From positions 1 to 32,483 of IMG/VR virus record IMGVR_UViG_3300000517_000125: a DNA stretch of 32,483 nucleotides; one strand, given 5' to 3'. Below are positions 2,790 through 28,721 of the stretch, piece by piece (position 1 is the stretch's first letter; the number at the start of each line of letters is the position of its first letter). Under the pieces are notes generated by a model. That model did no database searches. It had not been told where the DNA came from and saw only the letters and a list, made by a program, of their open reading frames with translations. The position numbers were made by a program, and so were the translations under genes. The DNA comes from a virus.

Positions 2790-3161
2790 TTAGTTAGAGA
2801 AGGTAGCTGAGGCTGTCACTGTAACAGCGTTTGCCCATCCTGCGTCTTCTAATGCAACTACGATGTCAGCAGTTGAATACTGACCAGTTGGGTAGATAGC
2901 GAAAGACAATGTGTCATCACTTTCGTCATCATACTGATACATGTGAATTGTACCCAATTGTTGGATAGCTTGTACACCGGCTGCTACTTCGTCACCTGTC
3001 AAAGCGCCATTTGCTGTAGCTGTGAAGAAGTCCAACTTTGGACCTTGAGGCTGAACTACTGCCCCATCAACAACTGCGTTTGCGCCTGAATTAGTAAAGC
3101 CATCGCTGTCTAAGCGTAATACTGGTTTAAGATCACCATTAACTCTTGTAAATTGTGCCAT
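2790..3161 (-). CDS. Small, probably abundant virion protein
   Basis: A 123-residue protein beginning MAQFTRVNGDLKPVLRLD, rich in Ala, Thr, Val and Gly with few charges, as in small capsid decoration or tail proteins. I recognise it only as a conserved small protein of marine T4-like phages. The gene forms a one-gene unit: a CATAAATA late promoter, a hairpin right at the predicted 5' end, a good ribosome site (AGGAGATTATAAAA before ATG) and a strong terminator just past the stop. That architecture implies very high late expression and a structural role, inferred rather than shown. Head decoration or tail tube association are both possible. Confidence 0.7.
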   Translation of the reverse strand: MAQFTRVNGDLKPVLRLDSDGFTNSGANAVVDGAVVQPQGPKLDFFTATANGALTGDEVAAGVQAIQQLGTIHMYQYDDESDDTLSFAIYPTGQYSTADIVVALEDAGWANAVTVTASATFSN

Positions 3162-3250: not shown

Positions 3251-5251
3251 TTAATTGTTTTTTTGAACGTTTTGAGTGCTGAATAAGCCACGATTAACTA
3301 GTTTAACTAAGCCGTCTGAGGTAGGCACTACGAAACCTTCACCCTCTGCCTTTCCTCCTGTGCTTTGATTTAAACCTTTAACTTGTGACTCTAATTGTTG
3401 TGCTAAGTTTAATTTTAGTCTATATATTGAATTCCAAATTTCAGTCAAACCCTTATACGCTGTGCTAGGAACTACTTTGCCATTTTCTAAAGTAAATAGC
3501 TTGCCAGGCAAATTATCTGAATCAGCACTGTATCTTCCCTTTTCGTCAGGGTTTCCCGATACCAATGCTTGATATTGCTTGGCACTAATTTGACCAGATA
3601 ACCATTTGTGTAAAGGTTCTTTTGTATTGCCTACAATACTTTGATTAAAATAAGTTTTGATTTTGCCACGAGTGCTTGCTGGAATGCTGAATAATAATTC
3701 ATCTACTTCTTTACGATATTTGTTTAGTGTTGATTTAGCAGTATTCAATAGTTCCGATGGCATATTTAATGAAAAATTAATACCAACATTGGGACTAATA
3801 ATTGCTACACCTCCAGAAACATTTTCTAATCCTTTGCCATTCCATACCTCAGCATTTTTATCTCCGAGATTAGCAAATTTTTGATGAACAACAATGCCGC
3901 CTGTTTTGTCTGAAATCATCTTTCCTAAGTCACTGTTTGCTGGAATAGCATATTCAACAGTATTAGGCTTAAATCGATATGCGCCATCTTGTGGTTTTAG
4001 CTGACCAGCCCACATCATGTCTCCCCAATAAAAACCATCGCCTTTTGTTGCTAAATCTAAGCCGGGCCATATCGCATTTAGTTTAGTGTATAAATCTCCG
4101 CGCATTGTGCCAGAGCGTTTGTTTTTATCGTATTTTTTCCAATCTTCAGGGCTTTGTGCGGCATAGCCTGCATCAAACATATACTTGTCCATGACTGCTA
4201 ATTTTCCATTTGGCAGTCTGCCCCAAATTAATGCTGGTTTACCGTCCCATTTGATAGTTACTTTTTCTGCATTATTAACTGAATCTTCTAATTGCTTAAT
4301 TGCATGATCGGCTGCTTCTGAGCCACCTGTTAAAAACGCATCTTCAGGATGGGGTATTCTTGGGTCTTTTCTTTCAGACTCAATAATCATTTCCATGCCT
4401 TGATTAACAATACGATCTCTAAGCCTAGCTAAAAAATGACTGCTGTCTTCACTTACAGGTGGTTCTATGTTTGGTTCTTCAATCCCTTGCTTTTCAATAA
4501 AACCCCTAAAATCAGCAAGTTTTTCATCACGCCTTGGATCGTCTTTTAATGCGTCATAAATCTTTTCTACTGTTCTTAAGTCAGATTTGTCATGCCCTTT
4601 GCCTAACAATACTTGTGCAACATAGTCAGGATCTTTTCCATTTTTTACAGGTTCATTTGTACTACGATCAATTAATCCGTTTCCGCCTAGTTTATATCCC
4701 AATGGCTTTGCTAAACTGCTTAGTAACACATTTCTATAGAAGCCTTTGTACTCAGGACTTGTGCCACTCATGTAAAATTTTGCCCATTTAGTAGAGTCTT
4801 CGTCAGCGTAAAAATTAAAATCTGTTTGAACATATCCCTTGTCAGGATCGCCTGCAATAGGAGTTCTAAAATGCAACTCTCCGGCTTTTTTAATCCATTC
4901 TTTTGGTTCTAAGTTGTTTTTGTTAACAAATGAAAGTAACTTTTGATATAGTTCGTCTTTTGTAGTATCTGTTACTACTAAATCGATGTCTCCAGAATCA
5001 GACATTCTTCCTGTGCTACCTAACCATCTAGTAGGAACACCTGCTTCATCGCGCTCTTGACCTGTCAAATCTAAGCCTGTTAAATTTTCTAGCCAGCGAA
5101 CAGTAGGTAAAACGTCTTCTAACTGTATACGTTGTGTTAGAATATTTCCTTCTTCGTCTTTAAATACGTTTCCGCCTTCATTAAGAACAACTCTTTTTTC
5201 GATGTTTTCTAACGTTCGTGTTAGTTGTGAAAAAGAATCTGAAATACTCAT
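3251..5251 (-). CDS. Pol X-like nucleotidyltransferase fused to ligase-like adenylation domain
   Basis: A 666-residue protein. Residues 77-91 read LGSTGRMSDSGDIDL, the G-S and D-x-D motif of the Pol beta-type nucleotidyltransferase fold (D88, D90); a third acidic strand follows as VQTDFNFY (D144). Residues 160-193 (MSGTSPEYKGFYRN, then LAKPLGYKLGGNGL) resemble the Pol X segment tGSkehN..lR.lAk.kGlkLneyGL. Residues 331-340 (VTIKWDGKPA) give the KxDG of ATP-dependent ligases, with K334 as possible AMP-linked lysine; GFYWGDMM (406-413) recalls motif III, and EGFVV (638-642) with VKLVNR (649-654) recall motifs IV and V. About 225 residues separate motifs III and IV, unusually long. The segment VVLNEGG holds an LNE site (E25) that prohead protease might cut. 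It overlaps the next upstream gene by one base (TAATG). Gap filling plus sealing is an inference; marine-phage relatives are usually left as unknown. Confidence 0.75.
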   Translation of the reverse strand: MSISDSFSQLTRTLENIEKRVVLNEGGNVFKDEEGNILTQRIQLEDVLPTVRWLENLTGLDLTGQERDEAGVPTRWLGSTGRMSDSGDIDLVVTDTTKDELYQKLLSFVNKNNLEPKEWIKKAGELHFRTPIAGDPDKGYVQTDFNFYADEDSTKWAKFYMSGTSPEYKGFYRNVLLSSLAKPLGYKLGGNGLIDRSTNEPVKNGKDPDYVAQVLLGKGHDKSDLRTVEKIYDALKDDPRRDEKLADFRGFIEKQGIEEPNIEPPVSEDSSHFLARLRDRIVNQGMEMIIESERKDPRIPHPEDAFLTGGSEAADHAIKQLEDSVNNAEKVTIKWDGKPALIWGRLPNGKLAVMDKYMFDAGYAAQSPEDWKKYDKNKRSGTMRGDLYTKLNAIWPGLDLATKGDGFYWGDMMWAGQLKPQDGAYRFKPNTVEYAIPANSDLGKMISDKTGGIVVHQKFANLGDKNAEVWNGKGLENVSGGVAIISPNVGINFSLNMPSELLNTAKSTLNKYRKEVDELLFSIPASTRGKIKTYFNQSIVGNTKEPLHKWLSGQISAKQYQALVSGNPDEKGRYSADSDNLPGKLFTLENGKVVPSTAYKGLTEIWNSIYRLKLNLAQQLESQVKGLNQSTGGKAEGEGFVVPTSDGLVKLVNRGLFSTQNVQKNN

Positions 5252-6351
5252 TACTTGCCCGTAAGTTCTTTTGCTATTTCATTATATCTTTTAGGATCTA
5301 TTTTGTGAAGTTGTTTTAATTGATCTCTAATTGTCATCCCTAATTCTCGACTCGACATCTCTTCATTGGGCTCTGAATTATTGTCATCTTGTTTTTGAGG
5401 GATTTCATTTTGATACTGACCTTGATCTACTTTATCGGCTCCTTGTTCTTTTGCAATACTCCAAGCTGCTTTCCCTAGTTTTTGAAGCGCAGGTTTAGCT
5501 TTTCTTGCAGGCCATTCAACTGCGTTAATTAAAGAAGCAATGTCATCTTTGTATTCTGAAAGATCAATTCCTTTTGTATAATTAACAAACCAACTTGTCA
5601 GCCACTGTGTAACGGTTTTCTTGTTAGGTTCTTCATTAAGTAGACTTTCAAATAATGATTCAAATTCGTATTCTAAACTTTCTACAAGATAGTAATTATT
5701 GCTTTCTTTAAGAACAGCAAATCCAGTATCGTCCCAAGAAAAATTTGTATATTCTAGCAGTTTATTGATAAAGTATATTTTCCAAGCCTCTGTCATTGTT
5801 TGACCGGTTTCAAGTCTTTTAACTGCCGATCCTGCAAACGCTTTGTCAATGTCAGCATTTTGGATAATATTTTGAACGGCTTTTTTAGCATTATCCCATT
5901 CAGGATAATCTTTTCTGTCAGCCATAACATTAATGACTTCTTTAACTCGCTTCATTTTTTCTTGCGGATTATTTTCAGCCTTTATGTTTTGTGCAATCTT
6001 TTTGATATAATTGTTTAACTGCTGAATAGACTTTCTTCTATCAGCCTGAGATTGTCCTTTCTTTTTTTGAGACTGTTGCTGTTGCTGATCTTGTTGAGGT
6101 TGTACTGTGTTGGGGTCTACTTTAGATGGCTCATCTTTAGAGTTTGGATCTACGATGCCAGATTCGATTGCATCTTCTAGTCCAGATAATGCATCATCTA
6201 CAAAGTCTTGAATAAAAGTGTTTTTTGCCATTTGAGACTTAACACTTTTTCCTCCAGATATTCCAGCAGTTTTTTGAGCAAATGCTTTTCCAAAATCTCC
6301 TAATAAACTTTCGTCTACTTTTAAGTAACCATTAAGTTCGTTTATCTTCAT
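5251..6351 (-). CDS. Glutamine-rich probable head-interior protein
   Basis: A 366-residue protein without a recognised fold. It starts MKINELNGYLKVDESLL, somewhat like a capsid-targeting start, and has a low-complexity Pro/Gln stretch at about residues 83-101, a basic helical region (about 104-150), a segment dense in L-x-E triplets (LVES, LFES, LLNEE, about 220-240), and a charged C-terminus. Such features are frequent in internal head proteins of T4-like phages. Its ATG lies 20 bases inside the upstream 85-residue gene, with AGGAAAAAG as ribosome site, and its stop overlaps the start of the Pol X/ligase-like gene (TAATG). Co-translation suggests the two proteins act together, possibly in the virion. 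Confidence 0.6.
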   Translation of the reverse strand: MKINELNGYLKVDESLLGDFGKAFAQKTAGISGGKSVKSQMAKNTFIQDFVDDALSGLEDAIESGIVDPNSKDEPSKVDPNTVQPQQDQQQQQSQKKKGQSQADRRKSIQQLNNYIKKIAQNIKAENNPQEKMKRVKEVINVMADRKDYPEWDNAKKAVQNIIQNADIDKAFAGSAVKRLETGQTMTEAWKIYFINKLLEYTNFSWDDTGFAVLKESNNYYLVESLEYEFESLFESLLNEEPNKKTVTQWLTSWFVNYTKGIDLSEYKDDIASLINAVEWPARKAKPALQKLGKAAWSIAKEQGADKVDQGQYQNEIPQKQDDNNSEPNEEMSSRELGMTIRDQLKQLHKIDPKRYNEIAKELTGK

Positions 6352-6589
6352 TATTCTTTTTCCTCAATACTTTGGTAAATTTTTCTTGATTTTTATTTTT
6401 GATAGCATTTAATAGCTTTCTTTCAAGAACTTCTACCTTATCAGAAGAATAATGTTTATCCATTAGTTCAATCAAATTAATAGCACTGGTAATTACATTA
6501 GAGGCTCTGGATTCAATAAAATGATTAATATCTTTATTTTCTCCAATCGATTGTAATTCTTCTAAAAGGCTTTTAGTTTTCTTTTGCAT
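6332..6589 (-). CDS. Small helical head-core-like protein
   Basis: An 85-residue, almost wholly helical, charged protein containing FIESRASNVITSAINLIELM and VLERKLLNAIK. This pattern recurs as a conserved small protein of marine T4-like phages. In size and charge it is comparable to T4 prohead core proteins such as gp67, but I cannot show homology. It is the first gene after an ACTAAATA late promoter and has AAGGA seven bases before the ATG. Its end overlaps the next gene by 20 bases. Confidence 0.6.
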   Translation of the reverse strand: MQKKTKSLLEELQSIGENKDINHFIESRASNVITSAINLIELMDKHYSSDKVEVLERKLLNAIKNKNQEKFTKVLRKKNNEDKRT

Positions 6590-6629: not shown

Positions 6630-8030
6630 TTATTTCTTAAGTGTATTCAGCAAATTTTTTAATTTTGCACTTTGAACGTCTGCTACAACTTTCTTGGATT
6701 CTGGTTCTACTTGATCGTGGACCTCATCATTTACAGTGCTTGTAGTCTTTACTTTGTCTAAAATTTGATTGGGACTAGCTTGGGGCTTGCTGTGACTGGG
6801 TTGCTCAGGGTCATCGTCTGTGATACGCATTGTTTCAACATCGTACTCTAAATCTAGCTTTTGACCGACCCCAGTAGAACTACGAGATTTCATGCACTGA
6901 ATCTGATATTTGCCCCTTTCGCGCATAGAACGAGAAGTAAAAATACCAAAAACATAGTCTGCTGTGTTAATCTTTGAAATACCACCAGCAATATGACTGT
7001 GATCAAACTCGATCTCTTCTACTGCCGACCTATTCAACTGAGAAGCAGTAACCATAACAATGTTTAATTCTTTAGCTAAATTGCGCAGTTCTTCACTTAC
7101 GTATTTGTCTTTGATAAACTGATCGTTAGGATTGACTTTTACAGACACCGGCATAACAAGATCAAGATAATCAACCATTACAAAGTCAATTTTCATACCT
7201 GTTTGAATTTGCAATTCGTTGATATATCCTCGTATTGTGTTTACATTACTTTGCGCTGGCAAACCTTTAACACGATATTTCCCAAACTTTTTGCCTGCCA
7301 TTTTTACTTGTAATTCAACAGAATCCATGTCTCGTCTAATATCTCTAGTGCTCATGTTAGTAAGCATGGCATCTGTTCTTAGCGAAGTCAATTCTTCAGA
7401 AAGTTCTAGTGTAATGTAAACACCATTTAGCCCTTGATTCAAAAAGTTAAGAGCCAAATTCATCATAATAAGAGACTTACCTGAGCCTGAACCACCAGCA
7501 AAAATATTTAGTTCGGCCCTACTCATGCCACCATACATCAATCTATCAAGCTGGGGCCAGCCTGTGCTTACTTGACCACCTTGATTAAAATAACGATTTA
7601 GTCTGTCTTTAGGGTCAATAAAATAGTCTGTGCCCATATCTCTTTGCAAAGATATTTGAACAGCATCTTTGATAATTTTTTCTACAGGATCAAATTCATT
7701 TTTTTCAAGCAAGTCTGCTGATTGCATAATTGCTCTTTCTAATTCGTGTCTTTTAGTAAAGCCTTCAAATTCTTCTAAGAACCATTCTTCTTGATCAGCA
7801 ATCTCAGGAACAGGATCAATTTGTTCGCCAGTTGCCGCTTTGATTTGAACTGGATCTGGCATAATGTTGTATTTTGTAGTGTGCTCTACAATAAATTCAG
7901 CAACCGGACGAAGCGTTCGGTCGAAATTTTGAGGGTTCATAATGTTCAATACACGAGTATAAAGTTCTGCATTGGTAACCATCATTTGCAAGAACACTCG
8001 TTGAACATCAACATTATACTCTTTTAACAA
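6630..8030 (-). CDS. 41: Replicative DNA helicase, DnaB/gp41 type
   Basis: A 466-residue RecA-fold hexameric helicase, the T4 gp41 counterpart that unwinds the lagging-strand template and binds the primase. Walker A is GGSGSGKS (179-186), Walker B VMVDYLD (284-290), and the DnaB-type segment VTASQLNRSAVEE follows. The N-terminal 150 residues are the usual helical collar region. The frame opens at TTG 8030, preceded by AGGAGAAAAC, and no better start is visible; it overlaps the primase gene by 17 bases, fitting the primosome pairing of the two products. The tail after about residue 410 is low-complexity (Pro, Ser, Lys). Confidence 0.95.
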   Translation of the reverse strand: MLKEYNVDVQRVFLQMMVTNAELYTRVLNIMNPQNFDRTLRPVAEFIVEHTTKYNIMPDPVQIKAATGEQIDPVPEIADQEEWFLEEFEGFTKRHELERAIMQSADLLEKNEFDPVEKIIKDAVQISLQRDMGTDYFIDPKDRLNRYFNQGGQVSTGWPQLDRLMYGGMSRAELNIFAGGSGSGKSLIMMNLALNFLNQGLNGVYITLELSEELTSLRTDAMLTNMSTRDIRRDMDSVELQVKMAGKKFGKYRVKGLPAQSNVNTIRGYINELQIQTGMKIDFVMVDYLDLVMPVSVKVNPNDQFIKDKYVSEELRNLAKELNIVMVTASQLNRSAVEEIEFDHSHIAGGISKINTADYVFGIFTSRSMRERGKYQIQCMKSRSSTGVGQKLDLEYDVETMRITDDDPEQPSHSKPQASPNQILDKVKTTSTVNDEVHDQVEPESKKVVADVQSAKLKNLLNTLKK

Positions 8031-9898: not shown

Positions 9899-10279
9899 AT
9901 GAATTCGGAAGACTTTTTTAATAAACTTAGCGAAGATCACCCCTATATTTCAATATGCTCACACGCAGGACAAGACTATGTGGGCATTATACAAAATCGC
10001 GATGATCTAGTCACTACTTTATATGACTACGGAGCGATTGTGTCTACAGAACTTAAAAAGAAGTTTTTAGAATTAGGAGATACTTGGTGGTGGGAAAGCA
10101 ATCGACAAATACCAATCAATTTATTTTTAAAAGAAGAATGGGACCCGTTTAAGCCTTATTTGAAAACTTTTAATAATAAAAGTTTAACACTACTTCATGG
10201 TCCGGTTATTAGCATGAATGAAATGACGAAAAAAAGAAAAAAGCGCCGAAGTATAACACTAGTTAAACGACTTTCTTGA
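9899..10279 (+). CDS. Conserved hypothetical protein, the only plus-strand gene
   Basis: A 126-residue protein conserved, as far as I recall, in marine T4-like phages but of unknown role. It begins MNSEDFFNKLSEDHPYIS, has a WWWESNRQIPINLFL segment near the middle (about 62-77) and ends in a strongly basic tail KKRKKRRSITLVKRLS, suggesting contact with nucleic acid or ribosome. It runs against all its neighbours, diverging from the structural gene at 9819 and converging on peptide deformylase, whose 3' end it overlaps by 17 bases. No clear Shine-Dalgarno precedes the ATG. Convergent transcription could let it and the deformylase gene interfere with each other. Confidence 0.75.
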   Translation: MNSEDFFNKLSEDHPYISICSHAGQDYVGIIQNRDDLVTTLYDYGAIVSTELKKKFLELGDTWWWESNRQIPINLFLKEEWDPFKPYLKTFNNKSLTLLHGPVISMNEMTKKRKKRRSITLVKRLS

Positions 10280-10769
10280 GTTTTTTTAAATATTTTTTTC
10301 TACGTTCCTTAGCAAATTTCAAACTAAGTTTAGCCACACGCTGATCAAAAGTAACTCCCATCAGATGATCGAACTCATGTAAAAAGACTCGCGCTCTAAA
10401 TCCATAAAATTCTTCTTGTTTGGTTTGCCCAGTAATAGTTTGATATGTCACTACTGCACTGCTAGGTCTTTTTACTTTTAGCCATAGACCTGGAAAACTT
10501 AAACAACCTTCTTCTCCCATAACACGATTGTCAGAAAGAGAAACAATTTTAGGGTTAATGCATGCAATTAGTTCATCTTCATTTCCCATAATAAAAACAC
10601 GCTTTTTTATTCCACACTGCGGCGCCGATAATCCTACACCGTTGTGTAGAAACATCAACCTAGACATTTCTTTAATAAGTTCGTTAGGATCTCCATCTAC
10701 TTCAAAGTCCCAATCGTCTGCTGGTTCTAGTAATACTGGATCATCTTCTTTGACTAATTTTAATTTCAT
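10263..10769 (-). CDS. def: Peptide deformylase
   Basis: A 168-residue enzyme that removes the formyl group from new proteins. All three signature motifs are present: GVGLSAPQ (44-51, with Q51), EGCLS (87-91, metal ligand C89) and HEFDH (131-135, ligands H131 and H135, catalytic E132). The C-terminus is basic. Phage deformylases are a known feature of marine T4-like phages, where they are thought to serve production of short-lived or membrane proteins during infection. It has a late promoter inside the end of the upstream gene, and its 3' end overlaps the convergent plus-strand gene. Confidence 0.95.
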   Translation of the reverse strand: MKLKLVKEDDPVLLEPADDWDFEVDGDPNELIKEMSRLMFLHNGVGLSAPQCGIKKRVFIMGNEDELIACINPKIVSLSDNRVMGEEGCLSFPGLWLKVKRPSSAVVTYQTITGQTKQEEFYGFRARVFLHEFDHLMGVTFDQRVAKLSLKFAKERRKKYLKKLKKVV

Positions 10770-28346: not shown

Positions 28347-28721
28347 TTATTTTTTATATCCCTTAAAAGGTTTGACAGGGCTATTTTTATGTGTAGATTC
28401 TAATTCATTGCTGTCGAAATCACCTTTGTTTAAATCTTCCCAATTAACACCGGCAGCTTTGTATGCGGCTTTAAGCATATCTTGTTCTTCTTCAGTATAT
28501 GGATGAGACGATTTTAATTTTCCAACAAAAGAGTTCATTGGTGATTCTATTTTGTTTTTGCCATCTGAACAGGCTACAGCCATCATAACTCGATTTAAAG
28601 AATAATCGTTATTAATTTTTTCTGCATCAGAATATACATTCATGCCTCGACTGCCACTGCTTTTTCTTTTAGAAATTTCAGTGTGACCTTTGGCTTCATT
28701 TAAAAATTCATGCGCTCTCAT
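28347..28721 (-). CDS. Small protein with capsid-targeting-like N-terminus
   Basis: A 124-residue protein starting MRAHEFLNEAKG, very close in pattern to the T4 capsid-targeting sequence MKTYQEFI-x-EA, with LNE before A as the likely prohead-protease site. The following KGHTEISKRKSSGSRG is basic, and EISKRK recurs in the 612-residue protein. The middle resembles small T4-like marine phage proteins in which a variable linker joins the targeting start to a helical module (TEEEQDMLKAAYKAAGV). An internal head protein delivered with the DNA is the favoured reading. Its start is one base after the fibre-like gene's stop. Confidence 0.65.
   Translation of the reverse strand: MRAHEFLNEAKGHTEISKRKSSGSRGMNVYSDAEKINNDYSLNRVMMAVACSDGKNKIESPMNSFVGKLKSSHPYTEEEQDMLKAAYKAAGVNWEDLNKGDFDSNELESTHKNSPVKPFKGYKK

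Follow-up and report, generated by a model that had tools for sequence, protein, structure and literature searches.

A phage protein joining a Pol X-like nucleotidyltransferase domain to a ligase-like DUF6267 domain

The fusion gene and its surroundings

The window, i.e., the whole stretch of 32,483 nucleotides that was analysed, is a viral contig of 32 kb whose sequence contains a real and complete open reading frame for a protein combining a nucleotidyltransferase (NTase) domain with a DUF6267 domain (Table 1). The start codon of this gene overlaps the stop codon of the upstream one (TAATG). Full-length homologues of the window protein are encoded in other viral contigs, such as those referred to as L002 (99%) and L003 (47%), beyond which about 70 more complete fusions were found. 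Searches carried out with the window protein as a single sequence against Pfam, NCBIfam, PADLOC, and PDB returned either DUF6267 or nothing.

Table 1. Features of the fusion gene and of its upstream neighbours, in positions of the window.
Feature	Position	Strand	Basis
NTase-DUF6267 fusion gene	3251..5251	minus	666 aa; ATG at 5251, stop at 3251 (ORF and translation)
N-terminal leader, residues 1-25, ending L23-N24-E25 before G26-G27	5177..5251	minus	prohead-protease-like site
Pol X-like nucleotidyltransferase domain, residues 26-250	4502..5176	minus	AlphaFold2 and PDB fold matches
GS...GDID metal-binding motif, residues 78-90 (D88, D90)	4982..5020	minus	G78, D88, D90 invariant in 71 sequences
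Q142-T-D144, third catalytic carboxylate	4820..4828	minus	Q142, D144 invariant in 71 sequences
Thumb-like segment, residues 161-217 (YKG..R...LAK..GYKL...GL)	4601..4771	minus	conserved
DUF6267 ligase-like domain, residues 291-666	3254..4381	minus	PF19782, E=2.8e-30; AlphaFold2 pLDDT 94.7
Motif I KWDG (K334)	4241..4252	minus	K334, D336, G337 invariant in 70
Motif III-like GFYWGDMM (D411)	4013..4036	minus	D411 invariant in 70
Motif IV-like EGFVV (E638)	3326..3340	minus	E638, G639 invariant in 70
Motif V-like VKLVNR (K650)	3290..3307	minus	K650, R654 invariant in 70
Upstream gene, virion-like protein	5251..6351	minus	stop overlaps fusion ATG; context only
85-aa conserved neighbour, PHROG virion structural	6332..6589	minus	phrog_11854, E=1.4e-14; beside 56/115 loci
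gp41-type replicative helicase, conserved neighbour	6630..8030	minus	phrog_19, E=2.8e-73; beside 74/115 loci

The fusion gene comes after the genes for the gp41 helicase and a gp61 primase, and the same placement is maintained in most of its relatives. An earlier note on this DNA had located the gene among head genes; genes near it do match PHROG virion-structural families, but the helicase and primase genes precede it, and its immediate neighbours include no capsid, portal, or protease gene, so that the description is correct only in part. Two related long fusions, L070 and L226, have N-terminal extensions before the NTase domain that resemble, by eye, the virion-like upstream gene. No polynucleotide kinase or phosphatase was found when sought among the conserved neighbour clusters, and the seven loci examined for tRNA genes, like the window, contain none.

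Some further genes can be mentioned. A 123-aa protein (MAQFTRVNGDLKPVL...; window positions 2790-3161), without any family match, is encoded downstream of the fusion gene and conserved at 46 of the 115 loci, and a peptide deformylase (PHROG 2890, E=6e-42) lies at 10263-10769. In HTVC008M, a kinase-like gene (Zeta_toxin/AAA_33) is located downstream.

Structure and conservation of the two domains

The alignment of the N-terminal domain included 71 diverse homologues, sharing 22-68% identity with the window protein, and the AlphaFold2 model of residues 1-285 built from it had a mean pLDDT of 90.8 and a pTM of 0.80. A Foldseek comparison of this model with PDB yielded 278 matches at E<=1e-3; the best 50 of them all belonged to DNA polymerase family X (Pol mu, lambda, beta, TdT, and ASFV PolX), with a probability of 1.00 and E of about 2e-5, and several had been solved with gapped or broken DNA. 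This agrees with the Pol beta fold that had been proposed for residues 60-200. Pol X entries are very numerous in PDB, and other members of the Pol beta superfamily may follow beyond the best 50 of the 278. The TM-scores to the Pol X structures, normalised by query length, are 0.3-0.45, and it is therefore likely that the palm and the thumb alone are common to the two.

Six residues (G78, D88, D90, Q142, D144, and G192) are invariant in the 71 homologues, while position 79 is occupied by serine in 65 and by threonine in 6. The motif residues pointed out by the earlier note in this half (G78-S79, D88, D90, and D144) are indeed at those positions and conserved, with the small correction that the MSGT segment begins at residue 161 instead of 160. 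As for the thumb, the Pfam profile DNA_pol_B_thumb (PF14791) matched 4 of the 71 members, with a best E of 0.0095, and did not match the window protein itself. The domain is similar to family X polymerases (Pol beta, lambda, mu, TdT, and ASFV PolX) in having a palm with the GS...GDxD...D arrangement and a thumb-like segment; it differs from them in having neither an 8-kDa nor a BRCT domain, in being fused to a ligase-like partner, and in a sequence match that is weak and limited to the Pol beta thumb.

Residues 300-663 match DUF6267 (PF19782) with 106 bits against a curated cut-off of 27, and match as well PHROG 455, a family without an assigned function; the model of residues 286-666 had a pLDDT of 94.7. 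Ligase motifs I, III, IV, and V are present in this order, with an invariant lysine, and the residues conserved in all 70 homologues are K334, D336, G337, D411, F427, H456, K613, E638, G639, K650, and R654. The four motif residues that had been read by the earlier note from the letters (K334 in KWDG, D411 in GFYWGDMM, E638 in EGFVV, and K650 in VKLVNR) are thus placed as described, and the invariance observed in the 71 N-domain and 70 DUF6267 homologues indicates that the motifs of both halves are not due to chance. Motifs III and IV are 227 aa apart, far more than in ordinary ligases, and the model shows that a helical insertion accounts for the difference. Past VKLVNR, the chain ends after 12 aa, modelled as a single terminal helix following motif V, and it is therefore devoid of an OB domain and of motif VI.

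The evidence concerning the fold of this half is less direct. In PDB, Foldseek found nothing at E<=1e-3 for the DUF6267 model; the best matches, with E between 0.1 and 1, were mostly ligases (adenylyltransferase domains of the fungal tRNA ligase Trl1, the ASFV ligase, human LIG1, and an archaeal RNA ligase). Among predicted viral structures outside its own family, the model matched PA5oct EST35_0228 (3e-5), an Atu_ph07 protein annotated as 'RNA ligase' (3.9e-3), and a Lactococcus phage RNA ligase domain protein (4.1e-3). Pfam ligase families, PF01068 included, were absent from the best 25 of the 44 families matched by the 70 DUF6267 members, and PDB profile searches with three alignments (A6, A7, and A8) gave chance matches only.

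An indirect link to RNA ligases goes through a separate family of ligase-like proteins of jumbo phages (alignment A8, comprising Phosso gp446, Atu_ph07, PA5oct, and others). The comparison of this family with DUF6267 by hhalign gave 95.9% (E=5.8e-9), limited to the N-terminal region with HxED and motif I. Its 14 bridging members matched RNA_ligase (PF09414) in six cases (best E 0.0013), RNA_lig_T4_1 in one, and DUF6267 in five, and PF01068 was absent from the matches listed for them; in the Atu_ph07 member, the RNA_ligase match covers positions 3-169 of the 171 of the profile (E=9.8e-4), all these RNA_ligase scores being below the curated cut-off. DUF6267 shares with the ATP-dependent RNA ligases (PF09414, PF09511, and the Trl1 adenylyltransferase domain) the KxDG, GD, EG, and K motifs in the same order, and differs from them in the long helical segment inserted after motif III and before motif IV, in a conserved HxED near its start, and in showing no direct significant match. 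As a whole, the motif evidence for a ligase is good and the fold evidence is indirect, and the analysis supports a fusion between a Pol X-like domain and a ligase-superfamily-like domain in which the catalytic residues are conserved.

Distribution and linkage of the two halves

At least several hundred uncultured phages of aquatic origin carry the fusion protein. Confirmed scan matches placed the N-terminal domain in at least 582 viral stretches, and nearly all the complete ORFs at the loci examined are fusions. No cellular homologue of this domain was confirmed by a pattern scan of 84,980 species genomes. The DUF6267 matches retrieved from the same genomes belong mostly to marine metagenome-assembled contigs, which are probably phage, and the sequenced phage records with relatives of DUF6267 number at least 469.

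The association of the two halves was evaluated on loci found by the N-terminal domain only, non-redundant and with enough flanking sequence: in 54 of 59 such genes, from unbiased scans, the NTase is fused or adjacent to a ligase-like gene. When the two are split into adjacent genes, most of these overlap by 1-44 bp. Split genes occur with the NTase gene preceding that of DUF6267, mostly with an overlap of 4 bp; in jumbo phages the ligase-like gene comes first, the overlap being mostly of 11-44 bp. A tree of 93 N-domains requires three changes between the fused and the split state, and the association therefore outlasts rearrangement. The halves are nonetheless separable, since DUF6267 exists without an NTase partner in T4-like cyanophages as well as in HTVC008M; Melnitz, S-WAM1, and P-RSM6 also have it alone. 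This architecture exists, is widespread, and has received no name: neither Pfam nor PHROGs assigns a function to DUF6267, and no mention of it was found in the literature searched. A role in a two-step nucleic acid repair would give a name to a widespread unknown.

Other arrangements were observed at single loci. In L221 (6792-9011, minus strand) and in the near-identical L224, L228, and L230, a gene opposite to and overlapping that of the NTase encodes a 739-aa protein in which DUF6267 is joined to a cytidylyltransferase-like domain and to the anti-CBASS protein Acb1 (E=1.2e-18). A 1091-aa protein of L192 (725-4000) consists of a RelA/SpoT-like HD_4 domain, a cytidylyltransferase-like domain, a Pol X-like NTase, and a ligase-like segment with a KIDG motif recognised by eye. 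Phage Phosso harbors a second, diverged NTase homologue (L282, 6240-7196), and the 14 kb examined contain no ligase-like gene. Lastly, proteins with a TD...(I/V)S.K(G/S) pattern, PD-(D/E)XK-like by eye, are encoded beside ligase-like genes in L164 (7309-8328), L004 (8929-9987), and L266 (7459-8793), and the one of S-SCSM1 is annotated as a virion protein.

Proposed reaction, substrate, and packaging

The joining of a polymerase-shaped, nucleotide-adding domain to a ligase-like one makes it probable that the protein refills and rejoins broken nucleic acid, and the reading of the two halves as a pair made of a nucleotidyltransferase and a ligase-like enzyme appears very probable. The N-terminal domain would add lost nucleotides to a broken strand, after which DUF6267 would adenylate itself on K334 and seal the break, both halves presumably being active, in sequence, on one substrate. 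This substrate would more likely be RNA, e.g., a tRNA cut by host defence nucleases, than the phage DNA; to an end-repair enzyme of this kind, with two active sites and with RNA as the likelier target, a probability of roughly one half can be given.

A precedent exists in phages, whose RlaP nucleotidyltransferase and companion RNA ligases have been proposed to replace missing nucleotides and rejoin tRNA after its cleavage by nucleases of the RloC type (PMC7824862). In modules of RlaP (PF10127) with Rnl1 or Rnl2, a Pol beta-superfamily nucleotidyltransferase is likewise linked to an RNA ligase (PMC7824862), and the fusion extends this known partnership. Unlike in those modules, the two activities usually reside here in one chain, the ligase is the unrecognised DUF6267, and the N-terminal domain itself is not an RlaP: PF10127 has no match among the families listed for its 71 members, and true RlaP genes are located at other loci in Atu_ph07 and Lak-A2 (none was found in eight longer contigs).

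The repair of ends or gaps by a polymerase and a ligase is also known for DNA. Bacterial LigD combines a primase-type (AEP) polymerase with a true DNA ligase possessing an OB fold, whereas in viruses PolX and the ligase are encoded as two distinct proteins. The earlier note had viewed the window protein as a fused fill-and-seal enzyme of this sort. In such a reading the Pol X half would fill short gaps and the ligase half would seal nicks or ends in the phage DNA, at the replication fork or on incoming molecules. The fusion itself and the conservation of its catalytic residues are confirmed; the DNA target seems rather unlikely. It is favoured by the N-domain structural matches, the best 50 of which are all DNA repair polymerases, in several cases bound to gapped or broken DNA, by the primase and helicase genes that precede the fusion gene in most relatives, and by the weak C-domain matches, some of which are to the ASFV and human DNA ligases. 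Against it stand the lack of an OB fold and of motif VI past motif V, the profile links, which lead to RNA_ligase and not to DNA_ligase_A_M, and a separate canonical DNA ligase in all eight longer contigs tested, which also led to the rejection of DUF6267 as the replicative DNA ligase of these phages. The same three observations, together with the RlaP precedent, speak for RNA, against which it must be considered that the Pol X-like half resembles DNA and not RNA polymerases and that the gene is beside replication genes. The negative results for kinase, phosphatase, and tRNA genes, and the occurrence of DUF6267 without the NTase, likewise weigh against the end-repair reading. On balance, RNA (tRNA) end repair fits the ligase half better than DNA gap repair, and RNA is placed ahead of DNA as the substrate by about 2 to 1.

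A counter-defence chemistry other than strand repair is less probable still. According to it, the protein would belong to a set of injected anti-defence factors, and its two nucleotidyl transfer sites would act on a protein, a nucleotide signal, or some small molecule. The L221-type protein, with its cytidylyltransferase-like domain and Acb1, and the L192-type one, with HD_4 and a cytidylyltransferase-like domain in the same chain as the NTase, are consistent with this idea, as are the NMNAT-like proteins: genes of one such type adjoin DUF6267 in several cyanophages, and proteins of this neighbouring type are reported to be present in the virions of S-SCSM1 and S-CREM2 (PMC9602691, PMC10665884). 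The L221-type and L192-type fusions come, however, from two lineages only, and the fold and motif evidence favours polymerase/ligase chemistry.

T4 gp21 cuts after L/I-X-E, and the leaders of T4 proteins measure from 7 residues (Alt) upwards (PMC9026906). A (L/I/V)xE triplet with a variable middle residue lies directly before the conserved GG in all 71 readable fusions (LxE in 58, IxE in 11, and VxE in 2), and the LNE site indicated by the earlier note at residue 25 is therefore part of a general pattern, 69 of the 71 fusions having LxE or IxE. The leader before GG, mostly of 5-9 aa across the fusions, reaches 25 aa in the window protein; in L003 and some others, just a few residues are ahead of the site. 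The unfused homologues of Phosso and Atu_ph07 start with MGG and have no LxE site; like the few residues of L003, this counts against packaging. A short N-terminal leader ending in L/I-x-E is also typical of the internal or ejection proteins of T4 (IPI-III and Alt; PMC9026906). The conserved prohead-protease-like site suggests that the protein may be packaged and may enter the cell with the DNA; the chance of its being in the virion can be put slightly below even. The same (L/I/V)xE enrichment occurs in some of the neighbouring virion-like clusters and is absent from others. Of eight long contigs, which may be incomplete, a single one was seen to encode an S77 prohead protease. When published virion proteomes were examined for DUF6267, S-CREM2 had no evident gene for it by annotation. 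The S-SCSM1 virion protein at the expected position (SSCSM1_90) is not DUF6267.

The only mass-spectrometric match is a distant unfused NTase homologue in PA5oct, which carries a structural-protein label; cytoplasmic enzymes, among them ribonucleotide reductase, thymidylate synthase, and GTP cyclohydrolase, bear the same note, and little weight was therefore given to the label. That the protein is a virion structural or ejection component whose enzyme folds are inactive relics, as its virion-structural neighbours, its prohead-protease-like N-terminus, and the PA5oct listing might suggest, is very improbable, since relics would not keep all the expected catalytic residues invariant across very diverse homologues.

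If end repair and packaging are combined, a single virion protein, made of two unrecognised enzyme families of which one is related to gap-filling DNA polymerases, would enter with the genome, restore lost nucleotides, and reseal cut RNA (for instance tRNA cleaved by a host defence) before phage genes are expressed. This combination is, as a whole, doubtful; if the protein is packaged, it would be one of the few instances in which repair arrives together with the genome instead of being made after infection. Elsewhere in the window (28347-28721), a 124-aa protein starting MRAHEFLNEAKG resembles the T4 capsid-targeting leaders with an LxE site.
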